A DNA stretch of 64,000 nucleotides, taken from Dugong dugon. Its lineage: Eukaryota; Chordata; Mammalia; Sirenia; Dugongidae. The position numbers and the translations under genes were made by a program. Positions 19,625-62,280 of the stretch are shown piece by piece. Position 1 is the stretch's first letter. Each line of letters starts with the position of its first letter. Location: contig CM057463.1 in the NCBI GenBank assembly GCA_030035585.1, positions 141,702,736-141,766,735 of the forward strand. The letters are read 5' to 3'. Below the pieces are notes generated by a model. That model was not told the DNA's origin. It ran no database searches and saw nothing but the letters and a program-made list of their open reading frames with translations.

Positions 19625-22359
19625 GCTTGAAGGAGAACGCTGTCTTTTGCTTTCTCTTTCATATGGTGAATAGGGAACTTAAACTTACTGCCAACAAAGT
19701 TTTTACTCAAGAGAATAACGCTTTGCCTCCTTCACCTTCGAGAATTGGAGAAACGCGGTTTCTCTTCTCCTTTAGCGATACCGTCTATAAAGCCCTATTC
19801 TCAGCTTCGCAGCACAGAATGAATCCTGGAATGCTGGAAACCCTGAACGTCTTCCACTGCTTGAAAGGAGAAACGTCGTACACTTTATCAAAGTAGACAA
19901 TGCACAGGAACTTTCTTAGACATGTAAAACAGAGCGGTTCTCAAACACAGAAAGTGAATCGTGCTCCCTTCATCCCCAGACTGAGAGCAACAAGCTGTTG
20001 CTTTCTCTCTCAGGCAGGGAAGAAACTACATGCTCGTGTTAAGCATACAAGCTTTAGTCAGCAAAACTGAACCTCTTCTGCTGTCCTCTAGCTGAAGGCG
20101 GAGAATCTTCCTGTTCGGCTTTGAAAGCCAGTACTACCCTCATTCCTGGAAGGCAAACTTCCCTTTGAATACCAGAGGATTCAAATACTTGTTAGGCCTG
20201 CACTCTCCAGCCTTCTCCCACTCAGAGAACATTGGAGAAAGCAGCTTGTGCTGGGCAGACTCTTTCTTGTAACAAAACTGAAAACGTAAGTAGATTCAGT
20301 TAAGCAGCTTGAAGGAGAAGGCTGTCTTTTGCTTTCTCTTTCATATGGTGAATAGGGAACTTAAACTTACTGCTAACAAAGTTTTTACTCAAGAGAATAA
20401 CGCTTTGCCTCCTTCGCCTTCGAGAATGGGAGAAACGCGGTTTCTCTTCTCCTTTAGCGATACCATCTGTAAAGCCCTATTCTCAGCTTCGCAGCACAGA
20501 ATGAATCCTGGAATGCTGGAAAGCCTGTACGGCTTCAACTACTTGAAAGGGAGAAAAGTCATACGTTTATCCTGGTAGACAATGAACAGGCAACGTTCTT
20601 AGTTATGTAACACAGAGGGAATTTCCAACACAGAAAGTGAATTGTGCTCCGTTCCTCCCAAGACTGAGAACGACAAGCTCTCACTTTCTCTTTCAGGCAG
20701 GGAAGAAGCTACAGGCTCCTGTAGAGCATACAAGCTTTAGTCAGCAAAACTGAACCTCTTCTGCTGTCCTCTAGCTGAAGGCAGACAATCTGCCTGTTTG
20801 GCTTTGAAAGCCAGTAATACCTTCATTCCCTGGTATGCGAAATTCCCTTGGAAATCCAGGGGATTCAAATGCTTGCTAGGCCTGCACTCTCCAGCCTTCT
20901 CCCACTCAGAGAACATTGGAGAAAGCAGCTTGTGCTGGGCAGACACTTTCTAGTAACAAAACTGAAAACTTAAGTAGATTCAGTTAACCAGCTTGAAGGA
21001 GAAGGCTGTGTTTTGCTCTCTCTTTCATATGGTGAATAGGAAACTAAAACTTACTGCTAACAAATGTTTTACTCAGGCGAAGTACGGTTCTGCCTCCTTA
21101 GCCTTGCAGAATGGGAGAAACGCCGTTTCTCTTCTCCTTTAGCGATACCGTCTGGAAAGCGGTATTCTCAGCAGCGCAGCACAGAATGCCTCCCGGAATG
21201 CTGGAAACCCTGAACGTCTTCAACTGCTTGAAAGGGAGAAACGTCGTACACTTTATCAAAGTACACAATGCACAGGAACTTTCTTAGACATGTAAAACAG
21301 AGGGATTCTCAAGCACAGAAAGTGAATCGTGCTCCTCTCATCCACAGACTGAGAGCAACAAGCTCTTGCTTTCTCTTTCAGGCAGGGAAGAAGCTACAGG
21401 CTCGTGTTACGCACACAAGCTTTAGTCAGCAAATCTGAACCTCTTCTATTGTCCTCTAGCTGAAGGCACACAATCTACTTGTCTGGCTTTGAAAGCCAAC
21501 AGTACCTTCATTCCCTGGTATGCAAACTTCCCTTAGAAACCCAGGGGATACAAATACTTGCTGGGCCTGCACCGTCCAGCCTTCTCCAACTCAGAGAACA
21601 TTGGAGAAAGCAGCTTTGCTGGGCGGACTCTTTCCTCGAACAAAACTGAAAACTTAAGTAGATTCAGTTAAGCAGCTTGAAGGAGAACGCTGTATTTTCC
21701 TATGTCTTTCATGTGGTGAATGGGGAACTTAGAATTGCTGCTAACAAATTTCTACTCAGCACAACTACGGTTTTGCCTCCTTCGCGTTCCAGAATGGGAT
21801 AAACGCGGTTTCTCTTCTCTTTTAGCGATACCGTCTGTAAAGCCCTATTCTCATCTTCGCAGCACAGGATGCCTCCAGGAATTCTGGAAACCCTGAACAG
21901 CTTCAACTACTTGAAAGGGAGAAAAGTCATACGCTTTATCCAGGTAGACAATGCACAGGCAACTTTCCTAGGCATGTAACACAGAGGGACTTTCAAACAC
22001 AGAAAGTGAATCACGCTCCGTTCATCCCCAGACTGAGAGCAACAAGCTCTTGCTTTCTCTTTCAGGCAGGGAAGAATCTACACGCTCGTGTTAAGCACAC
22101 AAGCTTTAGTCAGCAAAACTGAACCCTTTCTGCTGTCCTCTAGCTGAAGGCAGACAATCTACCTGTTTGGCTTTGAAAGCCAGTAGTACCTTCATTCCCT
22201 GGTATGCAAAATTCCCTTGGAAATCCAGGGGATTCAAATACTTGCTAGGCCTGCACTCTCCAGCGTTGTCCCCCTTAGAGAACATTGGAGAATGCAGCTT
22301 TTGCTGGGCAGACTCTTTCTTGTAAGAAACCTGAAAACTTAAGTAGATTCAGTTAAGCA
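19625..22359 (+). repeat. HOR block 4, truncated: C'-A-B-F'
   Basis: C' (19625), A (20307) and B (20991) match the beginnings of the preceding units. B then passes into F' (21675) with no further trimer. F' starts like F but from about 21881 has its own substitutions (GGAATTCTGGAAACCC, TTTCCTAGGC, AATCACGCTCC). The last 3' third of B already shows the B'-type CCAACAGTACC. This is where regular order breaks down. Confidence 0.88.
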
Positions 22360-25300
22360 GCTTGAAGAAGAACGCTGTCTTTTGCTTTCTCTTTCTTAGG
22401 GTGAATAGGGAACTTAAACTTACTGCTAACAAAGTTTTTACTCAGGAGAATTAGGGTTTTGCCTCTTTCACGTTCCAGAATGGGAGAAACGCGGTTTCTC
22501 TTCTCTTTTAGCGATACTGTCCATAAAGCGGTATTCACACCCGTGCAGCACAGAATGACTCCCGGAATGCTGGAAACCCTGAACGGCTTCAACTGCTTGA
22601 AAGGGAGGAACGTCATATACTTTATCAAAGTACACAATGCACAGGAACTTTCTTAAATATGTAAAACAGAGGGATTTTCAACCACAAAATTGAATCGTGG
22701 TCCGTTCATCCACACAATGAGAGCAACAAGCTCTTGCTTTCTGTTTCAGGCAGGGAAGAAGCTACATGCTTGTGTTAAGCACACAAGCTTTAGTTGGCTA
22801 AACTGAACCTCTTCTGCTGTCCTCTAGGGGAAGGCAGACAGTCTACCTGGTTGGCTTTGAAAGCTAACAGTACCTTCATTCTCTTGTATGCAAATTTCCC
22901 TTTGAAACCCAGGAGATACAAATACTTGTTGGGCCTGCACTCTCCAGCCTTCTCCAACTCAGAGAACATTGGCGAAAGCAGCTTTCCTGGGAGACTCTTT
23001 CTTCTAACAAAACTGAAAACTTAAGTAGATTCAGTTTAGCAGCTTGAAGGAGAAAGCTGTATTTTGCTTTCTCTTTCATATGGTGAATAGGGAACTTCAA
23101 CTTACTGGTAAGAAAGTTTTTACTCAGGAGAACTACAGTTCTGCCTCCTTCGCGTTCCAGAATGGGAGAAACGTGGTTTCTCTTCTCCTTTAGCGATACC
23201 GTCTGTAAAGCCCTATTCTCAGCTTCGCAGCACAAAGTGACTCCCGGAGTGCTGGAAGCCTGTACGGCTTCAACTACTTGAAAGGGAGAAAAGTCATAAG
23301 CTTTATTCAGGTAGACAATGCAGAGGCAAATTTCTTAGTTATGTAACACAGAGGGACTTTCAAACACAGAAAGTGAATCGTGCTCCGTTCCTCCCCCGAC
23401 TGAGAGCAACAAGCTCTTGCTTTCTCTTTCAGGCAGGGAAGAAGCTACATGCTCGTGTTAAGCACAAGAGCTTTAGTCAGCAAAACTGAACCTCTTCTGC
23501 TGTCCTCTAGCTGAAGGCAGACAATCTTCCTGTTTGGCTTTGAAAGCCATTAGTACCTTCATTCCCTGGTATGCAAACTTCCCTTTGAAAACCAGGGGAT
23601 TCAAATACTTGCTAGGCCTGTACTCTCCAGCCTTCTCCCACTCAGAGAACATTGGAGAAAGGAGCTAGTGCTGGGCGGAACTTTTTTCTCACAAAACTGA
23701 AAACTTAAGTAGATTAGTTAAGCAGCTTGAGGTGAACGCTGTATTTTGCTTTCTCTTTCATGTGGTGAATGGTGAATTCCCACTTGCTGCTAACAAATAT
23801 TTTACTCAACACAGCTACGTTTTGCCTCCCTCGCGTTCCTGAACGGGACAAACGCGGTTTCTCTTCTCCTTTAGCAATACCGTCTGTAAAGCGTATTCTC
23901 AGCCGCGCAGCACAGAATGCCTCCCGGAATTCTGGAAACCCTGAACAGTTTCAACTGTTTGAAATGGAGAAACTTCACACACTTTAATCAAAGTAGACAA
24001 TGCACAGGCAACTTTCTTAGGCATGTAACACAGGGGGACTTTCAAACACAGAAAGTGAATCACGGTGCTCCGTTCATCCGCAGACTGAGAGCAGCAAGCT
24101 CTTGCTTTGTCTTTCAGGTAGGGAAGAAGCTACATGCTAGTGTAAGCACACAAGCTTTAGCCAGCAAAACTGAACCACTTCTGCTTTCCTCTAGCTGAAG
24201 GCAGACAATCTACCTGTTTGGCTTTGAAAGCCAGTAGTACCTTCATTCCCTGGTATGCAATCTTCCCTTTGAAAACCAGGGGAAGCAAATACTTGCTAGG
24301 CCTGTACTCTCCAGCCTTCTCCCACTCAGAGAACATTGGAGAAAGCAGCTTGTGCTGGGCGGACACTTTCTTCTAACAAAACTGAAAACTTAAGTAGATT
24401 AGTTAAGCAGCTTGAGGGGAATGCTGTATTTTGCTTTCTCTTTCATGTGGTGAATGGTGAATTCCCACTTGCTGCTAATAAAGCTTTTACTCAGCACAGC
24501 TAGTTTTGCCTCCCTCGCGTTCCTGAACGGGAGAAAAGCGGTTTCTCTTCTCCTTTAGCGATACCGTCTGTAAAGCGTATTCTCAGCCGCGCAGCACAGA
24601 ATGCCTCCCGGAATTCTGGAAACCCTGAACAGCTTCAACTGTTGGAAAGGGAGAAACGTCACACACTTTATCAAAGTAGACAATGCACAGGCAACTTTCT
24701 TAGGCATGTAACCCAGAGGGACTTTCCAACACAGAAAGTGAATCGTGCTCCGTTCCTCCCCAGACTGAGAGCAACAAGCTCTTGCTTTCTCTTTCAGGCA
24801 GGGAAGAATCTACATGCACCTGTTAAGCACACAGCTTTACTCAGCCAAACTGAATGCCTTCTGCTGTTCTCTAGCTGAAGGCAGACAGTCTACCTGTGTG
24901 GCATTGAAAGCCAGTAGTAACTTCATTCCCTGGTATGGAAAATGCCCTTGGAAATCCAGGGGATTCAAATACTTGCTAGGCCTGCACTCTCCAGCCTTCT
25001 CCCACTCAGAGAACATTGGAGAAAGCAGCTTGTGCTGGGCTGACACTTTCTTGTAACAAAACTGAAAACTTAAGTAGATTCAGTTAAGCAGCTTGAAGGA
25101 GAAGGCTGTCTTTTGCTTTCTCTTTCATATGGTGAATAGGAAACTAAAACTTACTGCTAACAAATGTTTTACACCGGAGTAGTACGGTTTTGCCTCGTTA
25201 GCCTTCCAGAATGGGAGAAATGCCGTTTCTCTTCTCTTTTAGCGATACCGTCTGTAAAGCCCTATTCTCAGCTTCGCAGCACAGAATGACTCCCGGCAAG

Positions 25301-26973
25301 CTGGAAAGCCTGTAAGGCCTCAACAGCTTGAAAGGGAGAAAAGTCATATGCTGTATGCAGGTAGACAATGCACAGGCAACTTTCTTAGGCATGTAACACA
25401 GAGGGACTTTCAAACACAGAAAGCGAATCGTGCTCCGTTCATCCGCACACTGAGAGAAACAAGCTCTTGCTTTCTCTTTCAGGCAGGGAAGAAGCCACAT
25501 GGTCGGGTTAAGCACACAAGCTTTAGTCAGCAAAACTGAACCTCTTCTGCTGTCCTCTAGCTGAAGGAAGACAATCTACCTGTTTGGCTTTGAAAGCCAG
25601 TAATACCTCCATTCCTGGTACGCAAAATTCCCTTGGAAAACCAGGAGATTCAAATACTTGCTAGGCCTGCACTGTCTAGCCTTCTCCCACGCAGGGAACA
25701 TTGGAGAAAGCAGCTTGTGATGGGCGTAAACTTTCTTCTAACAAAACTGAAAACTTAAGTAAAATAGTTAAGCAGCTTGAGGGGAACGCTGTATTTTGCT
25801 TTCTCTTTCATGTGGTGAATGGTGAATTCCCACTTGCTGCTAACAACGATTTTAATCAACACAGCTACGTTTTGCCTCCCACGCGTTCCTGAACGGGAGA
25901 AACGCGGTTTCTCTTCTCCTTTAGCGATACCGTCTGTAAAGCGTATTCTCAGCCGCGCAGCACAGAATGCCTCCCGGAATGCTGGAAACCCTGAACGGCT
26001 TCAACTGCTTGAAAGGGAGGAACTTCATACACTTTATCAAAGTACACAATGCACAGGAACTTTCTTAAATATGTAAAACAGAGGGATTTTCAACCACAAA
26101 ATTGAATCGTGGTCCGTTCATCCACACAATGAGAGCAACAAGCTCTTGCTTTCTGTTTCAGGCAGGGAAGAAGCTACATGCTTGTGTTAAGCACACAAGC
26201 TTTACTCAGCCAAACTGAACCTCTTCTGCTTTCCTCTAGCTGAAGGCAGACAATCTACTTGTTTGCCTTTGAAAGCCAGTAGTACCTTCTTTCCCTGGTA
26301 TACAAAATTCCTTTGGAAATCCAGGGGATTCAAATACTTGCTAGGCCTGCACTCTCCAGCCTTCTCCCACTCAGAGAACATTGGAGAAAGCAGCTTGTGC
26401 TGGGCAGACACTTTCTTGTAACAAAACTGAAAACTTAAGTAGATTCAGTTAAGCAGCTTGAAGGAGAACGCTGTCTTTTGCTTTCTCTTTCATATGGTGA
26501 ATAGGAAACTAAAACTTACTGCTAACAAATGTTTTACTCCGGAGAAGTACGGTTTTGCCTCGTTAGCCTTCCAGAATGGGAGAAATGCGGTTTCTCTTCT
26601 CCTTTAGCGATACCGTCTGTAAAGCGGTATTCTCATCAGCGCAGCACAGAATGCCTCCCGGAATGCTGGAAACCCTGAACGTCTTCAACTGCTTTAAAGG
26701 GAGAAATGTCGTACACTTTATCAAAGTAGACAATGCACAGGAACTTTCTTAGACATGTAAAACAGAGCGGTTTTCAAACACAGAAAGTGAATCGTGCTCC
26801 CTTCTTCCCCAGACTGAGAGCAACAAGCTCTTGCTTTCTCTCTCAGGCAGGGAAGAAGCTACATGCTCGTGTTAAGTACACAAACTTTAGTCAGCAAAAC
26901 TGAACCTCTTCTGATGTCCTCTAGCTCAAGGCAGACAATCTACCTGTTCGCCTTTGAAAGCCAGTAATACCTG
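22360..26973 (+). repeat. Diverged edge monomers H to N of the satellite
   Basis: Monomers start at 22360 (H), 23042 (I), 23725 (J), 24410 (K), 25091 (L), 25775 (M) and 26455 (N, partial). They carry many individual substitutions, small indels and damaged CpG sites, and none is a close copy of another. J, K and M share GGTGAATTCCCACTTGCTGC. L and N share a B-like 5' part with TTTTGCCTCGTTAGCC. K to M is 1365 bp and L to N is 1364 bp, so a relic two-monomer order is visible. M (about 26037-26204) shares a long private block with H (about 22625-22790), a sign of exchange between edge monomers. N stops at CCAGTAATACCT (26973). Confidence 0.9.
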
Positions 26974-29040
26974 AATAATGCCCTGCTTACACATCACTGG
27001 GTAATAGAAGAAATCAGAGATGGAATCCAAAAGATCCCGAATCAAATGAGAATGAAAACCCATCATACCGAAAACTTTGCCACACAGCAAACGCAGTCCT
27101 CAGAGGGCAATTTATACGAATAGATGCACACATCAAAAAAGAAGAAAGGGACAAAATCAAAACATTAACTACAGAACTCAAACAAATGGAAAGAGAACAG
27201 CAAAAAAAGCCCAGAGCCACTGGAAGAAAGGCAATAGTAAAGGTCAGAGTAGAAATAAATGAAATAGAGAACAGAAAAACAATAGAAAGGATCAACAACA
27301 AAAAAAAGCTGGTTCTTTGAAAGAATCAACAAAATTGACAAAACACTGGCCAGACAGACAAAAGAAAAACAGGAGAGGACGCAAATAACCTAAATAAGAA
27401 ATGAAATGGGGGACATTACAACAGACCCCTCTGAAATAAAAGGGATTATAACAGAATATTATGAGAAACTATACACCAACAAATTTGAAAACTTAGAGGA
27501 AATGGATGAATTTCTAGAAACACACCACCTACCCAAACTACAACAATGTGATGTTGAAAATCTGAACAGACCCATAACAAGAGAAGAGATTGAGAAGGTA
27601 ATAAAAAATACTCCCGACCGAAAAAAGCCCTGGCCCAGATACCTTCACTGGTGAATTCTACAAAACTTTTTCAGAAGGCCTTGTACCAGTACTACTCAAG
27701 CTATTTCAGAGCATTGAAAAGGAAGCGACCTTCCAAATTCATTCTATGAAGCCAGCATAATGCTGATACCAAAACCAGGCAAAGACATCATACAAAAAAG
27801 AAAATTACAGACCAATATCTCTCATGAATACAGATACAAAAATTCTTATCAAAATTCTAGCCAATAGAATTCAGCATCATATCAAAAAAGTAATACACCA
27901 CGAGCAAGTAGGATTCATACCAGGTATGCAAGGATGGTTCAACATGAGAAAATCAATCAATGTAATCCACCACATAAATAAAAGGAAAGAAAAGAATCAC
28001 ATGATCATCTCAATTGATGCAGAAAAGGCATCTGACAAAGTCCAACACCCATTCCTGACAGAAACTCTCAATAAAATAGGTATAGAAGGGAAATTTCTCA
28101 ACATACTAAATGGCGTCTATGCAAAACCAACAGCCAACATCATTCTTAATGGAGAGATGCTGAAAACATTCCCCTTGAGAACAGGAACAAGACAAAAATG
28201 CCCTTTATCACCACTCCTATTTACCATGGTGCTGGAAGTACTAGCTAGAGCAATAAGGCAAGAAAAAGAAATAAAAGGCATCCAAATTGGTAATGAAGAA
28301 GTGAGACTGTCCCTGTTTGCGGATGATATGATACTATACATAGAAAACCCTAAAGATGCCACGAGAAATCTACTGGAACTAATAGAAAGATTCAGCAGAC
28401 CAGGATCACAACAGAGAGTTCTAGACAAGGCTGGAGAACGATGTAGAACAAGATTCTAACTCACAAAAAAAGACCGGGTTTTCTGATCTAAAGGAGACTG
28501 GAGAAACCCCGAGAGTATGGCCCCCAGACACCCTTTTAGCTCAGTGGTGAAGTCATTTCCGAGGTTCACCATTCAGCCGCGGAGTGGACAGCCCCATAAA
28601 ACCAAATGGGACTAATGAGGCACAGCAGTCCAGGGACAAGGGCCAGAAGGCAGAAGGGGACAGGAAAACTGGTGATAGGGAACCCAGGTTGAGTAAGGAT
28701 ACTGTTGATGTGGTGTCAGGTTGTTAACCATTGTCATAAGGTGACATGTGTAGTAACTGTTAAATGAGAAACTATTTTGTTCTGTAAGCCTTCATCTAAA
28801 GTGAGAATAGCAGCACAATTGGAAGAACGTAATCGATGTCACTGAACTGTGCATGTAGAAATTTTTGAAATGGTGTATCTTTGGCTATGTATATTTTCAC
28901 CAAAACAAAGGTCGAGAAGGGAGAGGGTTGACATGTTGCGGGGTTATTACCCAATGTCATACAACCATATATGTACGACTGTTTCATGAGAAACTATTTG
29001 TTCTGTAAGCCTTCACCTGAAGTACAATATTAAAAAAAAG
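26974..29040 (+). mobile_element. L1 LINE, 5'-truncated and internally deleted, abutting the satellite
   Basis: The sequence after 26973 is L1 ORF2, beginning in the linker between endonuclease and reverse transcriptase. It continues through the RT core to about 28434, then jumps within some 30 bp to the 3'UTR (about 28435-29040). The missing part covers the RT thumb and the C-terminal cysteine region. The 3'UTR type (CCCCGAGAGTATGGCCCCC, then AGAAACTATTTTGTTCTG) is shared with the minus-strand copy at 34031 and nested piece at 35480. The terminal 3'UTR segment occurs twice (about 28670-28800 and 28905-29035) around a ~100-bp spacer. It ends in a short A-rich tail. Confidence 0.9.
27406..28434 (+). 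pseudogene. L1 ORF2 reverse-transcriptase fragment
   Basis: Two reading-frame pieces remain, 27406-27654 and 27824-28434, separated by frameshifts and stops. The second piece shows the core of a LINE-1 reverse transcriptase: [30 protein letters not shown] (the motif A aspartate region), [20 protein letters not shown] and the catalytic [10 protein letters not shown] motif. G-R changes such as TGTRQKCPL, where TGTRQGCPL is usual, indicate neutral decay. The usual ORF2 protein is about 1,275 residues; only about 450 codons of it can be traced here. It cannot support retrotransposition. Confidence 0.93.
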
Positions 29041-29064
29041 GAAAATAAAACCATAAACAAAAAA

Positions 29065-31776: not shown

Positions 31777-31818
<42 letters not shown>

Positions 31819-32060
31819 AAAAAAAACTCTAGAGAATGTAAACTAATCTATAGTGATAGTATGTACAGTAGTGGTGGGAGGAGATGGAGGGAAGAAAGGT
31901 GGAATTATAAAGGGAACAAAGAAACTTTGGAAGACGATGAGTGTGAGCCCGATAATGATTGTGGAGATGTCACAGTTTACACAACCTGATGAAATTTTAC
32001 ACTTTAAATATGTCCAGTTTATTGTATGCCAATTATACTTCCAGAAAGCCACTTAAAAAA
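31680..32060 (+). mobile_element. Old L1 3' end
   Basis: It carries the L1M-type 3' terminal signature: GTGGAGATGTCACAGTTTAC, then TTTTACACTTTAAATATGTCC and TATGCCAATTATACTTCC. The (TA)n at 31779-31818 interrupts it. Confidence 0.75.
31779..31818 (+). repeat. (TA)n microsatellite
   Basis: About 40 bp of alternating T and A with one G interruption. Confidence 0.95.
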
Positions 32061-32193
32061 AATCCTTTTCATATTTTCCTAGCAATCTTTTGGGTCAGAG
32101 GATGAGTACACATAATATTGTTCTGTGTATTACCAAATGGCCCTCTAGACGTTTGAACTCATTATTTCTTTCACCACCCATTTACCAGTATGT

Positions 32194-32196
<3 letters not shown>

Positions 32197-32246
<50 letters not shown>
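32197..32246 (+). repeat. (TA)n microsatellite
   Basis: About 50 bp of pure alternating T and A. Confidence 0.95.
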
Positions 32247-32248
<2 letters not shown>

Positions 32249-32349
32249 ACTTCTTTAATGTCAATCTAGTAGATAAAATAACAAAACTGATCATCTCTTT
32301 GTTTGGATTTGCGTGTCTTTCCTGGACAGTGATGTTGAACATCCTTCCA

Positions 32350-32860
32350 TGTTGGTGTCTGTAGTAATTTCCTATGGTTGCTGTAACAAGTGAACACAAA
32401 CTTGGTGGCTCAAAACCACACAAATTTGTGAGTTTATAGTCCTGGAGATCAGACATGAAATGAGTCTCACTGGGTAAAATCAATGTGCCTTCAGGAGGCT
32501 CTAAGAAAGAATCTATCTCTTTGCCGTTCCCAGCTTCTGGAGGCTGCCCACATCCTTGGCTCTTGACCTCCTTCCATATTTAAAGCCGGTAATGTGACTT
32601 AAGTCTTTCTCCTCTCACCTCACTCTGACTCTCTTTCCTGCCTCCCTCTTTCACTTATATAAGCACCCTTGTAATCACACTGGGTTTACTAGGATAATCC
32701 AGGTTGATCTCCCCTCTAAGGTCAGTTGATCAGCAAACTTCATTCTATCGGCAACCTTAATCCCCCTTTGCCATGTTACATAACGTAACATAGTCACAGA
32801 TTCCAGGGATTAGGATGACGATATAGGGGTGGGGGAGAACTATTCTTCCTATCAAAGGGT
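32350..32860 (-). mobile_element. MLT1-type LTR (ERVL-MaLR), antisense
   Basis: GTAGTAATTTCCTATGGTTG, then TGTAACAAGTGAACACAAAC and GGTGGCTCAAAACCACAC form the reverse complement of the MLT1 3' end (CTAATACA...GGTACTTTG...). The body includes TCCTGGAGATCAGACATGAAATGAG and GCTTCTGGAGGCTGCCCAC. It is a solo LTR with no internal region. Confidence 0.75.
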
Positions 32861-33229
32861 TCATTACATTTCTTTTACTTATGCACATTGTCTATTTTTC
32901 TATTTTTGTTTAACTTTTATCTTGTTAGCCTAAGTTTTTCTTAAATTAAGGACATTAACTATTTGATAATTTATTACAGTTTTCTCTCCCAGTTGTTATT
33001 TGCTTTTCTCTAATGTGTAGTTCTTTTAAAAAAAAAGTTGTCATTAAATATCATTGTATCTTGCTTAGGAAGGACTTGTTCACTCATTGTAAGAACTCTC
33101 TGAGTTCCATTGTAAAGGAATACCACTGACTTCTGTATAAAGACCAGACCAGAGGAGGCCAGAAGCAGAACAGGGAGAAACGAGTTGAAGGCCACTGAAA
33201 GAATCCAACGTAGGTGGCTGCATGTGGTT
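32861..33229. other. No recognisable feature
   Basis: AT-rich sequence; I see no gene or family in it. Confidence 0.45.
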
Positions 33230-33930
33230 GTTTTCCGTATCTAAAGTGAAAGTAGAACTGGCAGGAATTGCTCAGGGATCAGGTGTGTGCATGTGTGTGT
33301 GTGTGTACATGTGTCAAGAGAGAGACAGAGAGATTCTTAAAGGTTTTCGCTTGAGCAGCTGGGTGAAAAGGCAGTTTCATTTAGTGAAATGGTAAAGCCT
33401 GGTGGGAGGGGGGCTGTCTTTCTGTGTCTGAAGTTCAAGGGTCCCGGGATGTGTTGACATGTAGGTGGTTTTTCAAACCCCCATCCTCAACGATGTCACC
33501 TAGAGTACTTGTATGAAAGAAAGAGTAAGGGTCCGAAGGTAGAGCCTTGGAGCCCTCCAACCACAGGAAGAGAGGAGGATTAAGCACAGGAATCAGTGAA
33601 GGAAGTCAGTGGGGTAGGAAGAAGATCTGGAGACTGAAGCAAGGGAATCTAATGTTTCCAGAAGGAGAAGGGGGTGATGAACCATGCCAAATGCTGCCAC
33701 GGTCAAGGAAGACGTGGACCGAGAAGTGATCTTTGGTCTTGTCAATCAGAGGTCACTGATGACCATAAGTAGCAGATGGAGGGGTAGGAACAAAAGCCTG
33801 ATTGGAGGGAATTTCAAGGACAACGGTACCAGAAGAACAGAAGCAATACTCTAAAGTTGGGTTCTAGAGGGCAATGAGTTTTAGCTGAAGGGTGATGGAT
33901 TTAGGGAGGGGTATTTAAAGATGGAGAAGT
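33230..33930 (+). repeat. Ancient mammalian interspersed repeat, with a short (GT)n
   Basis: It contains blocks typical of the late part of an old repeat family: GTAGAGCCTTGGAGCCCTCC, CCAAATGCTGCCACGGTCAAGG, GGTCACTGATGACC and AAAGCCTGATTGGAGGG. It may be the same insertion as 29065-29185, separated by later insertions. A GT-rich run lies at 33282-33307. An open frame at 33547-33729 is a by-product. Confidence 0.5.
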
Positions 33931-35479
33931 TGTTCAACATTCAGTAATAGGTTTATTTTAGCATCCAAACTCTTGCTCAGCCCTATGAGGCCATATAGGA
34001 TCTAGCCTCTCCTGGCTCCTTGGTCTTCTTCTTTTTTTAAATTATTGTACTTTAGATGAAGGTTTATAGAACAAACTAGCTTCTCATTCAACAGTTAGTA
34101 CACATATTGTTTTATGACATTGGTTATCAACCCCCAAGACATGTCAACACTCTCCCTTCTTGATCTTGGGTTCCCTATTACCAGCTTTCCTGTCCCCTCC
34201 TGCCTTCTAGTCCTTGCCCCTGGGCTGGTGTGCCCCTTTAGTGTCATTTTGTTTTATGGGCCTCTCTACTCTTTCGATGAAGAGTGAAGCTCAGGAGTGA
34301 CTTCCTTACTGAGCTAAAAGGGTGTCCGGGAGCCATACTGTCAGGGTTTCTCCAGTCTCTGTCAGGCCAGTAAGGCTGTTCTTTTTTTTGTAAGTTACAA
34401 TTTTATTCTCCATTTTTCTTCAGCTCTGTCCAGGACTCTTTATTGTCATCCCTGTCAGAGCAGTCAGTTGTGGTAGCCGGGCACCATATAGTTGTACTGG
34501 ACTCAGTCTGGTGGAGGCTGTGATAGTTGTCGTCCATTAGTAAATTGGACTAATCTTTCCCTTGCGTCTTTTGTTTTCTTCTTTCTCCCTTGCTCCCAAC
34601 AGGGTGAGGCCAGTGAAGTATCTTAGATGGCTGCTGACAGGCTTTTAAGACCTCAGACTCTACTAAACAAAGTAGAATGTAGAATATTTTCTTTATAAAC
34701 TATGTTACGCCAATTGAGCTAGATGTTCCCTGAGAACATGGTCTCCACAGCCCTCAGCCCAGGAATTTGGTCCCTCAGGGAGTTGTTTCCATCCCCACCC
34801 CTTCCCTCCCTCATAACCATCAAAGATTGTTTCTTTTTGCGTGTAAAGCTTTTCATGAGTTTTTATAATAGTGATCTTATACAATATTTGTCGTTTTGGG
34901 ATTGACTTATTTCACTCAGTGTAATGGCCTCCAGATTCATTCATGCTGTGAGATACTTCATATATTCATCACTGTACTTGCATACTACTCCACTTTACCG
35001 CATGTACCATGTACCATAGTTTGTTTATCCATTCATCTGTTGATGGGCATCCAGGTTGTTTCCACCTTTTTGCTATTGTGAACAATGCTCCAGTTTACAT
35101 GGGTGTGCATATGTCTATTCATGTAATGGCTCTTATGTCTCTAGGATATATTCCTAGGAGTGAGATGGCTGGATCATACAGTATTTCTGTTTCTAGCTTT
35201 CTAAAGAAGTGCCATATGGTTTTCCAAAACGGTTGTACCATTTTGCATTGCCACCATCTGTGGGGAAGGGTACCAAGCTCCCTGCAGCCTCTCCAACGTT
35301 TGTTATTTCCTGGTTTTTTTGATTCATGCCAGTAATGCTGGGGTGAGATGGTATCTCATTGTGGTTTTGATTTACATTTCTCTAACGGCTAGTGATAGCG
35401 AGCATTTCTTCATCTGTCTGTCAGTCACTTGAATGTCTTCTTTGGTGAAGTGTCAGTTCATTTCAGTTGCCTAGTTTTT

Positions 35480-35677
35480 GTTTTTTTTTGTTTTTTTTTT
35501 TTTTTAATATATATTTTATTGTACTTCAGGTGAAAGCTTACAGAGCAAATAGTTTCTCATGAAATAGTAGTACACATGTTGTTTTTTGACATTGGTTAAC
35601 AACCCCACAACGTATTAAGCCTCTAAATTCTCAACCTTTTTTTTTGATGAAAATTACAGATCCGTTGCCTAGTTTTT
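35480..35677 (-). mobile_element. Nested short L1 3' end with 14-bp target-site duplication
   Basis: The 14-bp word GTTGCCTAGTTTTT occurs at 35466-35479 and again at 35664-35677, flanking the insertion. After the first copy comes a T-rich tract (reverse of the A-tail), then TTGTACTTCAGGTGAAAGC and AGTTTCTCATGAAATAG, which is the reverse complement of the terminal L1 3'UTR. The insertion is only about 185 bp, so it is a heavily 5'-truncated copy that landed in the older minus-strand L1. Confidence 0.92.
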
Positions 35678-35749
35678 AAATTGCATTATTTGTCTTTTTG
35701 TTGTAGAGCTGTTGGATTTTCCTGTAGATTTTAGAGATGAGAACTTTGC

Positions 35750-36381
35750 CAGTTTTGTTAGAAGAAACAGTCTGCCCACCACCAGCTGCTTTCTCAAATG
35801 TTCTCTCAGTGGGAGAAGACTGGAGGGTGCCTGCCTTGCAAGTATTTGAATCCCCTGGTTCTCAAAGGGAACTTTGCATAACAGGGAATGAACATACTTT
35901 TGGCTTTCAAAGCAAAAGAAGCAGATTGTTTGCCTTGAGCTAGAGGATGGCAGAAGAGGTTCAGTTTCGCTGACTAAACCTTGTGTGCTTAACGCGAGCA
36001 TGTAGCTTCTTCCCTGCCTGAAAGAGAAAGCAAGAGACTGTTGCTCTCAGTCTGGGGATTGAGAACGATTCACTGACTGTGTTTGAAAATCCCTCTGTTT
36101 TCTATACCTGTGCATTGTCTATCTGGATAAAGCGTATGACTTTTCTCCCTTTCAAGTGGTTGAAGCCATTCAGGGGTTACTGCATTCCGGGAGGCATTCT
36201 GTGCTGCGAGGCTGAGAATACCGCTTTACAGACGGTATCCCTGAAGGAGAAGAGAAACGGCGTTTCTCCCGTTCTGGAACACGAAAGAGACAAAACCGCA
36301 GTTTTGCTGAATAAAAACTATGTTCCCAACAAGTATAAGTTCCCAACACACCGCATGAAAGAGAAGGCAAAATATAGCGTA
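35750..36381 (-). repeat. Isolated diverged satellite monomer inside L1
   Basis: The reverse complement reads as one array-type monomer from just after its start (near the GCTGTATTTTGC block) to ACAAAACT, about 632 bp. Landmarks are all present: GAACGGGAGAAACGCC, GCAGCACAGAATGCC, GCTTTCTCTTTCAGGCAGGG, GGCTTTCAAAGC on the plus strand, and TTCTCCCACTGAGAGAACATT in reverse. It is clearly more diverged than interior array monomers, with a deletion near 36110, and lacks the ~50-bp stretch around the array phase start. It lies about 8.8 kb from the array edge, in the opposite orientation to the array but the same reading direction as its host L1. Confidence 0.95.
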
Positions 36382-37180
36382 GTGGGTGCCTAGATAATAA
36401 GTATGGTTATGTCTTCATGATGGATCGTCCTTTTAATCATTATATAATGCCCATCTTTGTCTTTCATGGTGGATTTTGTATTAAGGTCTATTTTATCTGA
36501 GATTAGTATCTTCACTTCTGCTGTTTTTGGGTACCTGTTTGCTTTATATATTTTTTTCACCCTTTGATTTTTAATAACTTTACATCTTTGTTTCTAAGGT
36601 GTATCTCTCGTAGACAATATAGGATAGATCCTGTTTTTTTATTTATTCTGTCACTCTCTGTCTCTTTATGAATGCATTTAGGCCATTGACATTCCACGCT
36701 ATTATTGATAGATGTGAGTTTATTGCTGTCATTTTGCAGTGCTATTTTTGTGGTGCTGACATTTTCTTTGTTCCTCTTACTCTCCTATACTGAATTCCTT
36801 TTGTTTGTGGGTTTGTTTTTTCATTTCTTTTGTTTTTCTAGATTTTTTTCTTACTGAGACTTTAGGTTTATCTTTTTTCTCTTGATGAGTAGGTGTGTTA
36901 ACTTTCTTTGTGCTTACCTTGAAATCTACCTGTATCTTCCTATGTTTGAACCAGTCTTTTATTACTTGGTATTGCCTTGCCTTCCTCTCCTTTAGAAAGT
37001 TCTATACCTACACCCTTTATTCTGTCTTTTCTTGTTCTGATATTGTTGTCATTTACAGACTAACCTCTCTGGATCCCAGTTGTAAGTCTTTTCGTTTTGA
37101 AAAACCTTGGGAGTTGGTTTCCTAAGTTAGTATCTTGTTGGTGCGACCTTGCATCTTAGATTCAGGCTCTTAATTTCACC
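36382..37180 (-). pseudogene. L1 ORF2 endonuclease start, remnant
   Basis: The plus strand shows the reverse complement of the ORF2 N-terminal region: ATAATGCCCATCTTTGTCTTTC, GTATTAAGGTCTATTTTATC, AAGGTGTATCTCTCGTAGAC and TGTCTCTTTATGAATGCATTTAGGCC on the plus strand. No long frame survives. The region ends at GGGTGCCTAG next to the satellite, in codons that normally lie about 100 residues into ORF2. Confidence 0.7.
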
Positions 37181-37181
37181 A

Positions 37182-37675
37182 TCATATTTGAACGAGAGTT
37201 TCACAAGCTATATTATTCTTGGCTAGCAGTTTTTCTTTCAAGGTTTTATATATGTCATACCATTGTCTTCTTGCCTCCGTGGTTTCTGCCGAGTAGTTAG
37301 AGCTTAGTCTTGTTGTTTCCCCTCTGTATGTGACTTTGTGGTTTTCTTGAGCTGCTCTCAGCATTCTTTCTCTGTCTTTGCTTTTAGCCAGTGTGATTAT
37401 GATATGCCTTGATGATTTTCTTTTGGGGTTTATCCTATACGGGATTCGTTGAGCTTCTTGGATGGTCAGCTTTCCATCTTTCATGACATTAAGGAAGTTT
37501 TCTGTCAGCAATTCTTCAGTGATTCTCTCCGTGTTTTCCGTTTTCTCCCCCTATTCTAGAACTCTGCTCTCTCACAGAGTTTTGCTTTTAAATATATCCC
37601 ACATCATTCTCAGCTTTTCTTCATTTTTCTTAGATCTTTTTTCTCATTTTTTTCCTAAAAAGAGTGCTATCCAAG
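37182..37675 (-). pseudogene. L1 ORF1 C-terminal half, remnant
   Basis: A 109-codon open stretch (37182-37511) contains the conserved C-terminal domain of the L1 RNA-binding ORF1 protein: RIPYRINPKRKSSRHIIITL, then KDRERMLRAAQENHKVTYRG and RLSSNYSAETTEARRQWYDI. The normal role is trimeric nucleic-acid binding and chaperoning in the L1 ribonucleoprotein. The frame breaks upstream, and the gene is split from its N-terminal half by an LTR at 37676. Confidence 0.88.
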
Positions 37676-38182
37676 TGTCTCAGTTATTTAGTGCCACTGT
37701 AACAGAAATACCACAAGTGTATGGCTTTAAGAAACACAAGTTTATTCTCTCACAGTCTAGTAGGCTGAAAGTCCAAATTCAGGGCATTAGCTTCAGGCGA
37801 AGTGTTTTCCTGTCAATTCTGGAGGAAAGTTCTTGTCATCAGTCTTCCCCTGGTCTAGGAGCTCCTCTGTGCAGGAACCCAGATCCAAAGGATGTGCTCT
37901 GCTCCTGGCACTGCTTTCTTGGTGGTATGAGGTGCTCCCTCTCTGCTTGCTTCTCTTTCCTTTTCTATCTTGTAAGATAAGAGGTGGTTCAGGGCACTCT
38001 CCAGGGAAACTGCCTTTATACTGGATCAGCGATGTGACCTCAGTAAAAGTGTTACAATGCCACCCGAATCCTCTTTAACATCAAATTCCAATCACAGAGT
38101 GGAGGGCAACCACACAATACTGGGTATCATGGCCTAACCAAGTTCACATATATATTTGGAGGACACAGTTCGATCCATGACA
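37676..38182 (-). mobile_element. Solo LTR-like element inserted in L1 ORF1
   Basis: A 507-bp element begins TGTCTCAGTTATTTAGTG and ends CGATCCATGACA (TG...CA termini). It is flanked by CCAAG (37671-37675) and CCGAG (38183-38187), a 5-bp target duplication with one change. On both sides L1 ORF1 continues. The internal layout (AATACCACAAGTGTATGGC, TTTATTCTCTCACAGTCTAG, GGAGGACACAGTTCGATCC) is MaLR-like in reverse orientation. I recognise it as a recurring elephant-type repeat but cannot give its name. Confidence 0.75.
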
Positions 38183-38187
38183 CCGAG

Positions 38188-38640
38188 TATTTGTCTTCAA
38201 TTTTGCTGTTCCTGTCTTCCATCGTTTCAAACTTGATCCTCAGAATGTTTATGACCCTGTCCATTTCTGAAATCTTGTTGTTTATCTTTTGGATTTCTAA
38301 TTACTGTTTTTGTATGATTTCTAGTTGTGAATTAATTTGGACATTTTGTTCATGTGTTATTTTCCTGAATTCTTCTATTGTTTTAGCTGTGTTTTCCATG
38401 ATTTTGACTGCCTTTTCCATGATTTTGTCTATTTTTTCCTCATTCGTGTCTACTTTTTGCTTCAACTCTTGGGTAGCTCTGACTATTAGAGATTTGCATT
38501 CCCTATCAGGTAGTTCTAGTGCCTTTTCTTCTACTGGAAAGCCATCTGGTGTTTTATTTTGATGCCCACTGGAACCATCCTGTCCTGTTTTCTTATGTTT
38601 TCAATTTTCTGCTGTCTTCAGGACATTCAGTAGTTATTTT
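38188..38640 (-). pseudogene. L1 ORF1 N-terminal, coiled-coil half, remnant
   Basis: The plus strand is rich in TTT, TTC and CCAT-type words with repeated CATGATTTTG units. On the minus strand these give Lys/Glu/Ile-rich heptad-like sequence, as expected for the ORF1 coiled coil. Its position directly between the LTR insertion and the L1 5'UTR supports the assignment. The 123-codon plus-strand frame here is a shadow of this region. Confidence 0.65.
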
Positions 38641-38935
38641 CTTTGTTAATTTATTGTAGACTTGTTTGTTCTGTCCCCCTTTTTTGTTTTATTTGGTTAT
38701 GTCTGAGCAAGCGGGCTGTGCGTGCTTTGTTGTTTGCTTGTCTGTGGGCATGAGGTTTTCACCCCCTCGTGCAATGGGCAGAGCCAGTAGCTCAGCTATG
38801 GTGCAGCAGGACAGGTCTCGCTGAAGGGGAGGGGCTAGGATGGGTTGTTTGTAGCATGAACTGTGGCCGACAGGAGTGGGCCGAGGTTCACTGCAGATGG
38901 TGTTTCAGGCCTGGAATGCCGTGATATATAGATGA
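38641..38935 (-). other. L1 5'UTR remnant
   Basis: GC-richer sequence with GAGGTTTTCACCCCCTCGTG, TAGCTCAGCTATGG and GGAGTGGGCCGAGGTTCAC follows ORF1 upstream, as an L1 5'UTR/promoter would. No intact promoter is claimed. Confidence 0.55.
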
Positions 38936-39359
38936 ACCAGGTCTGCCATCCTGAAACTCAGAAACTTGGGGGTGCAGTGTGCTGTTAACAGTTACCAATG
39001 AGACAAACAAAAGGACAAGATCATTTTTGGTATTGAGGAGGGCTATGAAGACAATAAAATAAGGTGGATCACTCGGAGATGTTGAAGCCAAGAACTGATG
39101 ACAGCGTGGGAGCCTTGATCCAGGGGCAGACTGTGCTCCACTCTCATCCTGAGGCACACCTGGGACACAAAGCTGAAGATCCTGACGCAGCTCACGAGAC
39201 CCTACACCACCACCTGGCCCAGGCTCCTTCGCCTACTCCATAGTCAGTTGTGTCCAAACCCAGGGTCACACATAGCCACACTGATTCCCATTGCATTATG
39301 TACCTGATGGATGCTCAGAAGGGACTGCAAAATTGGACTTTCCAGGCTAATGTAACTAT
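38936..39359. other. Unassigned stretch
   Basis: A short piece around 38985-39065 looks faintly like an ancient MIR or L2 fragment. The remainder is unrecognised. A minus-strand open frame at 38888-39157 has no family resemblance. Confidence 0.4.
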
Positions 39360-39830
39360 TTGTTTTTCATAGCAGCCTTCAAGTAGGCTCCTACTCACAG
39401 TGACCTTATGTATAACAGGAGGAAACATTGCCGGTTCCTGGTCTTTAATATGTTTGAGTACATTTTTGCAAGTATTTTATCAGTTGATCTCCTTGAGGGT
39501 TTCCCTTGATTTTGCTGACCTTCTACCAAGCAGGATGTCCTTTTCTAGCGATTAGTCTTTCCTGATGATGTATACAAAGTAAGTGAGCTTTGCACTCTTG
39601 TCATCTTTTCTTCCAAGGAGCATTCTGCTGTAGTTCTTCCAAGATTGATTTGCTCACTTTTCTGACAGTCCACAGTATATTCAATATTCTTCACCAACGT
39701 AATTTGAATGTGCCCATTCTTCTTCGGTCTGGCTTTTTTATTGTCCAGCGTACACATGCATATGAAGTGACTGAAAAGACCGTACAAGCTTCCACTGACT
39801 TCCTCGATGAAATCTGGGACCTGTTCCAAA
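39360..39830 (-). mobile_element. RTE (BovB-like) LINE 3' fragment
   Basis: In reverse it matches the RTE 3' region seen at 51796-52250: AGTATATTCAATATTCTTCACC, CATGCATATGAAGTGACTG and GCATTCTGCTGTAGTTCTTCC. It is more diverged than the large copy at 51.8 kb and 5'-truncated. Small minus-strand frames here are debris of the RTE C terminus. Confidence 0.75.
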
Positions 39831-40284
39831 CCTGATAAAACAGCAACTTCAATTTGAACAGTATCGATAAAACTGCAGAAGGCACCGGCCTGACCTCAGC
39901 AAGGAGCTCTGAGGTTGACTTTCGAAAAATAATCACGAAGGAGAAGAATCTTCAACATATCTATACTGGGTCATGATATCCTAAAGTTGACTAGGAAGCA
40001 AAATGCTGTGAAACAAGAAATGGGTTACAATTTGAAGATAAATTTAATCATCTTGACTTGTGATTTGTGTGATATGTTTTGAAATATACCTAAAGTCATA
40101 CAGTTTGGTACAAAAGTTAAAATCTTGCAACTATAAAAAATTGTGGGAGGAGAAAACAAAAATATGTATTGCCCAAGTTGTAAAGAAGTTTATTAATAAA
40201 TTTGAAGAAACTACCAGCATACTGCCATAAAATAGCTCTGAGCAAATTTTTTGTAGTTGCAAGCAGTGAGGCAAACAGATACAT
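39831..40284. other. No recognisable feature
   Basis: AT-rich sequence without a gene or family that I can name. Confidence 0.45.
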
Positions 40285-40790
40285 ATACAACAATGTTCAC
40301 TGCAGCACTATTCACAATAGTCAAATTGTAGAAACATCTCTAATATCCATCCATAGATGAAAGGATAAATAAAATGGGGTACATACATGCAATGGAATAT
40401 TCCTCTGCCATAAAGGGAAATAAACTCCTGAGACATGCCACAGCATGGATGAACCTTGAAAACATGTTAAGTGAAATTAGGCAATCATAAAAAGACAAAT
40501 AATGCAAGGTTTCACTACTATGAAATAGCTAGAATAGGTAAAGGTATAGAGATTAGAGTTTAATAGTGCTAACCAGGGGTGGGAGAGACAGGGAAAGGAG
40601 GAGAGCGTTGCTTATGAAACATAGAGTTTTTCTTTATGAGGTTATGAAATTTGGCAGAGGATACTGGTGATGATTGCACAATATAATTGGTGTAATGTGC
40701 TTTATGAAATCGTACACTTGAAAAACGTTGAATTGGCAAACGTGTTCTTCATATGTTTACAGTTATAATTTTTTTTAAACATTCAAGTTT
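40285..40790 (+). mobile_element. Old L1 3' end (L1M type)
   Basis: Diagnostic L1 3' blocks are CACTGCAGCACTATTCACAA, GGATGAACCTTGAAAACATG, TACTATGAAATAGCTAGAAT and CGTACACTTGAAAAACG. It is ancient and 5'-truncated. Confidence 0.85.
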
Positions 40791-41280
40791 CATCAACTGA
40801 AGTGAATTTTTAGGATTCCTTAAATAATTGAAATCATTATATAAAATGACAAAGCGTTTGGATGTCAATAACACTTGGGACCTTTAGGTTAGGAGTCAAA
40901 TGCTTTAGCCCCTGACCCCCGAGGGCTTCTTCCCAGAAGTGAAGGCAAGAGCAAAAACTGTGTATCCACAGGCACTGCAACCAGGGAACATATGAGTCAG
41001 ATTCAGGACCAGTACGTACCAAACTCCATAAATAGTGCCTCCATATTTTTGCATATGTAAAGTTTGAGGGGTTTGGAGTGAGCAAGTAAAGAATGTCATA
41101 TAAATGATATTAATGTCTAATGGGGTTTCAAAGGAGGAAAATTATATCTGAATTATTACAGAGGGAGGATCCAAAAATCTCCCAAAGCAAATAATTTATT
41201 TCTTTAACCAATGTCATATTTTTTGGCTTCTCAAACTATCAATGAGCAGTATTTTCTTTTCAATATGAAAAGAAAAGAAA
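40791..41280. other. No recognisable feature
   Basis: Unassigned sequence; a minus-strand open frame at 40837-41085 has no recognisable domain. Confidence 0.45.
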
Positions 41281-41442
41281 AAAACCCAAACCTATTGCCC
41301 TCGAGTTGATTCTGACTCATAGCAACCCTATAGGACAGAGTAGAAGTAACGCATAAGGTTTCCAAGGAGGGGCTGGTGGATTCGAACTGCTGACCTTTTG
41401 ATTAGTAGCCAAGCTCTTCACCTCTGTGCCACCAAGGCCCCA
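41281..41442 (-). mobile_element. AfroSINE-like SINE, antisense
   Basis: Reverse order of SINE blocks: CTCGAGTTGATTCTGACTC, AGCAACCCTATAGGACAGAG, GGATTCGAACTGCTGACC and TCACCTCTGTGCCACCA. Close to full length. Confidence 0.9.
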
Positions 41443-41509
41443 CATGTAGAAGACTAATAATTTTATAATAAATAAAAATGAATTTATAATAAATCAAAAT
41501 AAAAAGACG

Positions 41510-41832
41510 CAGCCAATATAGTACATGTATTGAAGAATTAGATCCAGCATGCTCGTTAGAAGTAAGGATGGTGAGACTTCATCTCACATGCTTTGGACAC
41601 GTTATAAGGAGGGAGCAATCCCTGGAGAAGGACATCATGCTTGGTAAAGTAGAGGGTCAGTGAAAGAGAGGAATACCCTTCACGAGATGGGTTGACACAG
41701 TGGCTGCAACAATCGACGTTAACATAGCAATGATTGTGAGGACTGTGCAGGACCTGGCAGTGTTTCCTTCTGTTGTACATGGGGTCACTATGAGTCAGAG
41801 TAGGCTCGACGGCACCTAACAACAACAACAGG
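41510..41832 (+). mobile_element. RTE LINE 3' fragment
   Basis: CTTTGGACACGTTATAAGG, GACATCATGCTTGGTAAAG, GATGGGTTGACACAGTGGC and CACTATGAGTCAGAGTAGG, ending CACCTAACAACAACAACAGG, reproduce the RTE 3' terminus. The tail is the AACAAC-type repeat typical of RTE rather than poly(A). Confidence 0.88.
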
Positions 41833-42358
41833 CAATATAAGCTCATTTTTATTATTCTATTCATTTGCCATAATATTCTGTCAATTTAATATAACATTAT
41901 CTCAGTACTCAATTTTAATACTTATATAGTAACACACCAGTAACAAAGAGTTCTTTCACCTGTTGGTGGTGCTTCTCTACCCACAATTCAGCTACCTTTA
42001 CAGTTGGTTTCCTTTCCTTACACCTACTAACAAGTTAAGCTAGCGGGCAGTGTTTGCTTTATCTCAAAAACTAGCTTTTCCCATAGAAGCTGGTGAGCAG
42101 CAGGTTCAACATTAAGGTTACTCTATCTACAGGTAAGGAGAAATACTTAGCAATAGTGGAGACCTTGAAATTGAAGTCCCTATTGCTGATATCAGGTGCA
42201 CTTATGATATGTCTCATAAGCAGTCAGTTCCTACTGGGTCATTTTCAACTAGCTTGTGGAGCTTCCTAAAACCTGGGGAAAATAGAAATGCTTAGGCCTA
42301 ACCCTAAACATACAAAATCAGAAGTTTTCAAAGATGAGCCCAAAATTGTGCTTTAAGA
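41833..42358. other. No recognisable feature
   Basis: AT-rich unassigned sequence. Confidence 0.45.
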
Positions 42359-42518
42359 AAATGCCCCATGGTGGCACAGTGGTTAAGAGCTGGGTTGCTA
42401 ACCAACAGCTTGGCAGTTCAAATCCACCAGCCACTTCTTGGAAACACTATGGGGCAGTTCTACTCCATCCTATAGGTTTGTTAGGAGTCAGAATCAACTT
42501 GATGGCAATGGGTTTCTT
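42359..42518 (+). mobile_element. AfroSINE-like SINE
   Basis: CATGGTGGCACAGTGGTTAAG, GTTCAAATCCACCAGCC, CTATGGGGCAGTTCTACTCC and GTCAGAATCAACTTGATGGC occur in the expected order. Confidence 0.92.
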
Positions 42519-62072: not shown

Positions 62073-62280
62073 TTCCTAGTGGCTGAATAGTTAAGTGCTT
62101 GGCTTCTAAACAAAAGATTGGTGGTTTGAACCCACCAGCCACTCCGCAGGACAAAGATGTGGCAGTCAGCTTCCTTAAAGATTTACAGCCTTAGAAACCT
62201 TATGGGGCAGTTCTACTCTTTCCTATAGGGTCGCTATGAGCTGGAATTGACTCGACAGCAATGGGTTTGCTTTTTGATTT
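62073..62280 (+). mobile_element. AfroSINE-like SINE, longer variant
   Basis: TGGTTTGAACCCACCAGCC, GACAAAGATGTGGCAGTCAG, TTATGGGGCAGTTCTACTC and GACTCGACAGCAATGGG. Full length, moderately diverged. Confidence 0.92.

Follow-up and report, generated by a model that had tools for sequence, protein, structure and literature searches.

The divided L1 and the neighbouring satellite array

The window analysed here, a 64,000-nucleotide stretch of Dugong dugon contig CM057463.1, begins within an array of TMAsat, described in PMC8421680 as a ~684-bp centromeric satellite of sirenians. The array occupies 1..26972 on the minus strand and runs off the window; 39 monomer starts give it a period of ~684 bp, individual monomers measure 673-690 bp, mostly 680-685, and shift comparison gave higher-order repeat shifts of 2050, 7520 and 5470 bp. 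At its right edge the array abuts the ORF2 of an L1 on the plus strand (26972..29050), and this contact was found only in this window when the best 40 of 3488 candidates were scored, the satellite side being absent from the 39 other matches.

Farther right, another L1 lies on the minus strand and is divided by a single TMAsat-like monomer. Its 5′ part (36381..38935) comprises the 5′UTR, ORF1 and the start of the ORF2 endonuclease to about codon 118, and its 3′ part (34031..35749) comprises ORF2 from about codon 1045 and the 3′UTR; identities to the satellite-free locus at C13:103.29 Mb, described below, are 91-93% and 92-93%, respectively. The naming of ORF1 and the 5′UTR and the placing of the 5′ end at 38935 are assumed from an earlier note on this DNA and from general knowledge of L1s, and what follows ORF2 in the 3′ part is presumably the 3′UTR. 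By phmmer, a 65-residue window peptide just right of 36380 (with an X at a stop) corresponds to human ORF2p residues 59-117, and the left-side stretch of a satellite-free paralogue (L029) corresponds to residues 768-1075, with the break near 1045; the window's own 29 codons left of the satellite carry the same motif as L029 at this break. Because the two alignments end and resume near codons 118 and 1045, about 2.8 kb of ORF2 is missing, an estimated 927 or so codons that include the reverse transcriptase. The 3′ part additionally contains a short L1-3′-end insertion of 184 bp (35480..35663, minus strand) flanked by GTTGCCTAGTTTTT at 35466 and 35664; it is absent from 20 other copies that were fetched and from seven satellite-free copies, whose alignments skip from about 35464-35500 to 35657-35666. 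No outer L1 target-site duplication was found in the window copy when 33961-34050 was compared with 38861-39080, an absence that says little in an old element.

The insert itself (35750..36380, plus strand, so labelled because it corresponds to the array's minus strand) contains 631 of ~684 bp of a monomer, bearing out the single monomer of ~632 bp proposed in the earlier note, and it stands where ORF2 codons ~119-1045 are missing, so that, as also proposed, it replaces lost sequence and is not a simple addition. BLAST aligned it to the array monomers at about 80-83% (best E 1.5e-166). The published TMAsat motif CTTTGCATAACAGGGAA matches exactly at 35872, within the insert; motif 1 is exact in the insert and occurs in the array only with two mismatches (10 places), and motif 2 shows one to two mismatches in the array and three in the insert. 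By its ~684-bp monomer length and these motifs the satellite is assigned to TMAsat. Compared with the array, the plurality sequence of 21 insert copies is missing 38 bp of the monomer, carries an additional 4-bp and a 1-bp indel, and differs from the array plurality by 12.9%. Within the monomer the two insert ends lie side by side, separated by these 38 bp, and most copies retain about 94% of its length; a 13-bp deletion in the window monomer was not found in the other 20 composites. The closest free monomer among the matches listed reached 86%, and none was identified as the donor.

Composite copies and satellite-free paralogues

To find other copies of the L1/satellite composite, the Dugong dugon genome was searched and the best 40 of 5703 candidates were scored, so that copies elsewhere may have escaped notice. 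Counting the window, at least 37 matched, with identities of 90-100%, and these lie on 19 contigs. Both junctions were spanned in 35 of the 37 (the window and 34 others), while the other two begin at query 57 and 63 and cover the right junction only. The matches listed span 692-756 bases of genome, none with two monomers, and each of the 20 fetched composites holds a single monomer. At least one flank outside the L1 was kept in every one of the 37 composites listed; moreover, in the 31800..42000 part of the surrounding segment that was read, sequence to the left and to the right of the L1 is about 93-97% identical in each of the 20 fetched copies, later gaps having arisen in some, and this similarity of about 10 kb at several places extends beyond a known repeat, as in segmental duplications defined by ≥1 kb and ≥90% identity. 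Because flanks outside the L1 are common to the copies, the composites are, as judged from these sequences, products of segmental duplication and not of fresh insertion. On each large contig the coordinates listed are confined to a single region no wider than about 1.4 Mb, in several cases close to the end of the contig, and the window composite adjoins the TMAsat array; one cluster per contig suggests that the duplication was probably pericentromeric.

At C13:103.29 Mb this L1 recurs, again bounded by these 5′ and 3′ flanks, and is continuous through both junctions with ORF2 in place; the locus has no satellite match. The L1 there is interrupted by a second L1, such that 9.4 kb lies between the points that flank the patch elsewhere. 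Among nine 3′-flank copies without a listed composite, seven continue through the left junction, whereas L036, which retains that junction, is a composite that later underwent a deletion, and L037 diverges at 34409. On the 5′ side, three more copies (L039-L041) are continuous through the right junction, and L042, one of the four 5′-flank copies sampled, resembles the L1 at only about 80% and gives no information. Fusion of two different L1s at the breakpoint had been considered on account of the 5′ flank, for which 19 of 40 scored matches lay away from composites, and was dropped in view of the C13 locus, where both flanks surround one L1.

The junctions lie at an identical place in 21 of 21 composites, with a few point differences. 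At the left junction (35749..35752), seen in the window and 20 fetched composites beside seven satellite-free paralogues, there is a 3-bp microhomology, CAG, within an 8/9 match between CAGATTTGT of the L1 and CAGTTTTGT of the satellite; the satellite-free site reads CAGATTTGT in six of the seven and CACATTTGT in L029. The right junction (36378..36383), compared across the same composites and four satellite-free paralogues, has no clear microhomology (0 bp). A microhomology of 3 bp is a weak sign and could be chance. No target-site duplication exists at the satellite edges when these are judged against the satellite-free paralogues, in agreement with the earlier note.

In an unrooted tree of the 3′ side, the 21 sampled composites formed one group (96/95), and in a 5′ tree rooted on other L1s they formed one group (100/99) inside the satellite-free copies; bootstrap values in both had yet to stabilise, and the grouping could be blurred by gene conversion between copies. 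Since the sampled composites group together beside or inside satellite-free copies, the replacement by satellite probably happened once, as far as the tree topology can tell.

Probable origin and spread of the satellite patch

These observations are best explained by one end-joining or template-switch repair event with a satellite patch, followed by spread through segmental duplication, to which a probability of roughly 0.9 is assigned. The starting point was a full-length L1, later with a second L1 in its ORF2, in the segment still present at C13:103.29 Mb; comparison with that locus shows that one descendant segment lost ORF2 codons ~118 to ~1045 and gained one near-complete TMAsat monomer instead. 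The likeliest mechanism would be that a replication intermediate broke or stalled near satellite DNA and was repaired by joining in a satellite fragment or a copied template, presumably with 3 bp of microhomology at one end only; this step is read from old junctions in present-day sequence. Segmental duplication then carried the patched segment to at least 37 copies on 19 contigs, and the single cluster per contig suggests exchange between pericentromeres. Of the two explanations in the earlier note, a repair patch of satellite DNA at a break is thus supported by the satellite-free paralogues, the grouped composites and the repair-like junctions. A point against a repair patch is that most copies of the insert retain about 94% of a monomer, a length for which a random fragment does not account.

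That length, with ends 38 bp apart in the monomer, would fit a special case of the repair patch: integration at the break of a satellite circle (eccDNA) of one monomer that had opened near the missing 38 bp. This is possible though unlikely: there is one event only, the outcome would look no different after capture of a linear fragment, synthesis-dependent strand annealing (SDSA) or replication template switching, and apart from the insert ends there is no sign of circles. A doubtful extension holds that, after such a circle had served as the patch, duplicons carried solitary monomers to many chromosomes as possible seeds or alignment sites for satellite growth or exchange. Tandem arrays do shrink, and a longer TMAsat array that split the L1 might later have been reduced to one monomer by unequal exchange. 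With a single monomer in each of the 20 fetched composites, any such collapse would predate the spread; with none of the 37 listed matches holding two monomers, and the missing ORF2 left unexplained, this history seems quite improbable.

The other explanation in the earlier note, an L1 that carried the monomer and spread it by retrotransposition, would fit the junctions common to many copies, the single orientation of the L1 parts, and the elephant TMAsat arrays that are mostly L1-flanked (9/10 and 15/16; PMC8421680). However, it is rejected on the flanks of the copies listed, since in each of the 37 duplicon sequence outside the L1 is preserved on one side at least, and no copy seen favours mobility; the reverse transcriptase is among the lost codons, one paralogue has these flanks and no satellite, and the want of an outer target duplication at the window copy is a weak further point in an element so old. 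Mobility is accordingly given next to no probability. The check proposed for it, many copies with identical junctions and different flanks, was thus borne out in the shared junctions and failed in the flanks, since the copies have duplicon flanks in common; it was too narrow, for it took many copies to mean mobility and a lone locus to mean repair, and omitted segmental duplication. Derivation of TMAsat from L1, with the insert a relic of that origin, is very improbable as well. A possible L1 relation of TMAsat is stated in PMC8421680, alongside the L1 flanks in elephants, but in a comparison of satellite with the L1 sequences in hand the best E was 0.30, no better than 20 shuffles (three better, six equal), and the two places in the window where satellite meets L1 both appear secondary. 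An array born from L1 was therefore dropped, and the suggestion that retrotransposition seeded the array finds no support, given a satellite without detectable L1 similarity and an array contact seen only here among the 40 scored matches.

Comparison with known systems

The satellite resembles TMAsat (PMC8421680) in monomer length, the published 17-bp motifs, and a tandem array with higher-order structure, and differs in the solitary monomer inside an L1, at the plurality distance from the window array given above. The patch likewise resembles Class 2 templated sequence insertions (PMC5110952) in that distant sequence would have patched a break with microhomology (CAG, 3 bp at one edge and 0 at the other) and target deletion (9.4 kb in the C13 paralogue), with no target duplication at the insert edges relative to the satellite-free paralogues and no poly(A). 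In contrast to those insertions, the patch is a centromeric satellite, whereas that screen discarded alpha satellite; it is also old and duplicon-carried, and an RNA origin for it is conjectural.

Pericentromeric segmental duplications are known from human genomics, and the blocks described here are similar in their size (≥10 kb), identity (about 93-97%), presence on many contigs and, in the window copy, position beside a satellite array; they differ in being sirenian, with a position near centromeres that is suggested by clustering. No description of a duplicon in the sirenian group was among the publications listed in literature searches. As this case shows, a composite of satellite and L1 that recurs many times with identical junctions can mimic a mobile element without being one, and because the window's two L1 contacts appear to be secondary, L1 flanks of TMAsat should not be taken as a sign of L1 origin. 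Given its apparently single origin, the patch can serve as a marker for the history of a sirenian duplicon and for what TMAsat was like when the event occurred.

Elsewhere in the window, three open reading frames right of the composite had no Pfam match, and an RNA family search returned one weak tRNA match at 62078.

Structure and copies of the composite

The minus-strand L1 at 34031-38935 is occupied, between 36381 and 35749, by a satellite monomer of 631 bp; the first position falls in the ORF2 endonuclease, at about human residue 117, and the second at about ORF2 residue 1045, as placed via the paralogue L029 (L012 to L042 being loci fetched from the host assembly, G000). Of the full monomer, 38 bp are absent from the insert, whose ends are neighbors in the monomer sequence. 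The 5′ part of the L1 also carries ∼504 bp (37679-38182) that are present in a paralogue on contig C13 and absent from related L1s (the nested L1 of L029, and L042), and this segment looks like an older repeat insertion.

A genome query made of the insert with about 50-60 bp of adjoining L1 at both ends found 59 matches among the best 40 of 5703 candidates. At least 37 were composites (window included), with 90-100% identity and spread over 19 contigs, and the remaining 22 were satellite only. Both junctions were spanned by 35 of the 37, the other two starting within the satellite at query positions 57 and 63. Insert length was 642-646 bp in 19 of 20 other copies and 633 bp in L028; the 13-bp deletions in the window and L028 inserts differ from each other.

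Around 20 of the 36 non-window composites, 10 kb was read, and beyond the L1 each of these 20 matched the window on both sides at about 93-97%. Later changes include the loss of 33153-34869 from L024 and of 40299-41358 from L023 and L024; L012 contains 200 Ns, its left match starting at 33629. Probes from the 3′ flank (33000-34000, best 40 of 57 candidates) and the 5′ flank (39020-39340, best 40 of 96) were compared in position with all 37 composites; 34 had one or both probes at the distance and on the strand expected, and 18 of these had both. L024 is one of the three composites without a placed probe, and its flanks were seen in its 10-kb read; of the other two, both read in part, C18:897728 shows the 5′ flank (38752-39551, 94%) and C7:86733128 shows both flanks (32239-34510, 95-96%, and 41624-42430, 92%). 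The earlier note had held that many copies with identical junctions and different flanks would support a mobile composite, and a single locus a repair patch; many copies do exist among the matches listed, but none of the at least 37 composites had unrelated flanks on both sides. The 5′-flank probe also repeats at about 15.0-kb spacing in several loci on C11, C12, and C20, suggesting a tandem structure inside the duplicon, the repeated copy of which was sampled in L039 and L040 only and carries a satellite-free L1 in both.

Satellite-free paralogues and order of events

Nine of the best 40 3′-flank matches lay away from the listed composites, and all nine were read. ORF2 continues straight across the left junction, without satellite, in seven; the other two are L037, which departs at 34409, and L036 (G000:C143:46579-50578), which keeps the satellite to the equivalent of window position 36160, is then joined to 40659, and is, judged from its sequence, a composite with a later deletion ending on one side inside the monomer. 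A gap-free read of C13:103288922-103304899 contains the same L1; the match, at 91-93%, takes in the 3′ flank from 33000 onward and the 5′ flank as far as 40288. ORF2 is present there, stop-broken, and has a nested L1 inside; no satellite match was found over this read, and 9,422 bp separate the two break positions. Among the best 40 5′-flank matches, 19 lay away from composites and four were sampled: the L1 crosses the right junction without satellite in L039-L041 (92-96%), and L042, about 79-83% like the L1, was uninformative.

Phylogenetic analysis of the 3′ side (28 rows: the window, 19 of the 20 fetched composites, L036, and seven satellite-free copies, with L024 and L037 left out as too short, and no outgroup) parted 21 composites from the seven satellite-free rows on one branch (96/95, bootstrap not settled). 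The 5′ tree (27 rows, with the nested L1 of L029 and L042 as outgroup) placed C13 first, L039-L041 next, and then the 21 composites as one group (100/99, bootstrap likewise not settled). The grouping points to a probable single origin of the patch. In each of the seven satellite-free copies, the nested L1 begins 800-816 bp away from the left break; because this distance is about equal throughout, the nested L1 is probably older than the patch, and the patch would therefore have taken out some 9.4 kb of sequence, not 2.8 kb, although gene conversion could mislead on both points. Among the fetched composites, 106 bp at 37168 are kept by L028 only, and since L028 shares this segment with C13, L040, and L041, its loss from the others probably came after the patch.

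Junctions and probable repair

At the left junction (∼35749/35750), the L1 side reads ...TTTGC/CAGATTTGT in six of the seven satellite-free copies, with CACATTTGT in L029; the satellite reads ...TTTT/CAGTTTTGT and the composite ...TTTGC/CAGTTTTGT, an overlap of 3 bp exact and 8/9 overall. At the right junction (∼36380/36381), satellite ...AGCGT is joined to L1 (A or G)TTGGGTGC, and no overlap is evident. Comparison with the satellite-free paralogues revealed no target duplication at the insert edges, and these edges have no A or T run. The left-junction microhomology and the absence of both features make up the signature described for class 2 templated insertions (PMC5110952). The signature fits end joining and replication template switching alike and does not separate them. 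The structure is real and well-defined, and the best explanation combines two processes of known kinds, first repair and then duplication.

Satellite array and insert donor

A tandem array of ∼684-bp monomers fills the left 27 kb of the window (G000:C4:141702736-141766735, part of a 3.16-Gb assembly). Its higher-order structure (1-26972) is nested: stretches of 97-100% identity arise when the array is shifted against itself by 3 monomers (2050 bp), 8 (5470 bp), or 11 (7520 bp). The array matches TMAsat, the sirenian centromeric satellite (PMC8421680), by monomer length and motifs rather than by the full published consensus. The published Trichechus manatus motif CTTTGCATAACAGGGAA has an exact match in the insert at 35872 and occurs at 10 places in the array, each with two mismatches and none exact; a second published motif has one or two mismatches in the array and three in the insert.

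The plurality sequence of 21 inserts differs from the array plurality by 12.9% and from single array monomers by 14.0-18.0%; the mean difference between array monomers is 9.5% (maximum 15.6%), and that between insert copies is 2.6% (maximum 5.1%). These distances make an older TMAsat variant, or a different one, the probable donor. The closest free-standing monomers among the matches listed, in groups at C7:85964919-85970252, C1:206123124-206126040, and C3:165224552-165226922, reach up to 86% identity to the insert, versus about 80-83% by BLAST for the window array, and are possible older satellite layers.

The array ends at 26972 inside ORF2 of another, plus-strand L1. Among the best 40 of 3488 candidates, the satellite side of this contact was found in the window only, the 39 others having the L1 side alone, and the boundary looks private to this locus. 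The satellite consensus showed no similarity above shuffled controls to the L1 sequences in hand. LINE-1 is reported to flank 9/10 and 15/16 TMAsat arrays in two elephants (PMC8421680); because the 26972 contact is window-only among the matches listed and satellite/L1 similarity did not exceed the controls, those flanks are unsupported as a sign of L1 origin on the basis of this genome. L1 may simply be common in TMAsat-flanking regions.

No description of this duplicon or patch was found in titles and opening abstracts of the papers listed, in part the best 8-20, on TMAsat, Loxodonta satellites, satellite/LINE-1 composites, templated insertions, pericentromeric or Trichechus segmental duplications, and dugong assemblies, a search with subscription journals mostly outside its scope. 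Elsewhere in the window, 62078-62144 resembles a tRNA weakly (30.1 bits against a gathering threshold of 29) and is possibly a tRNA-derived SINE.
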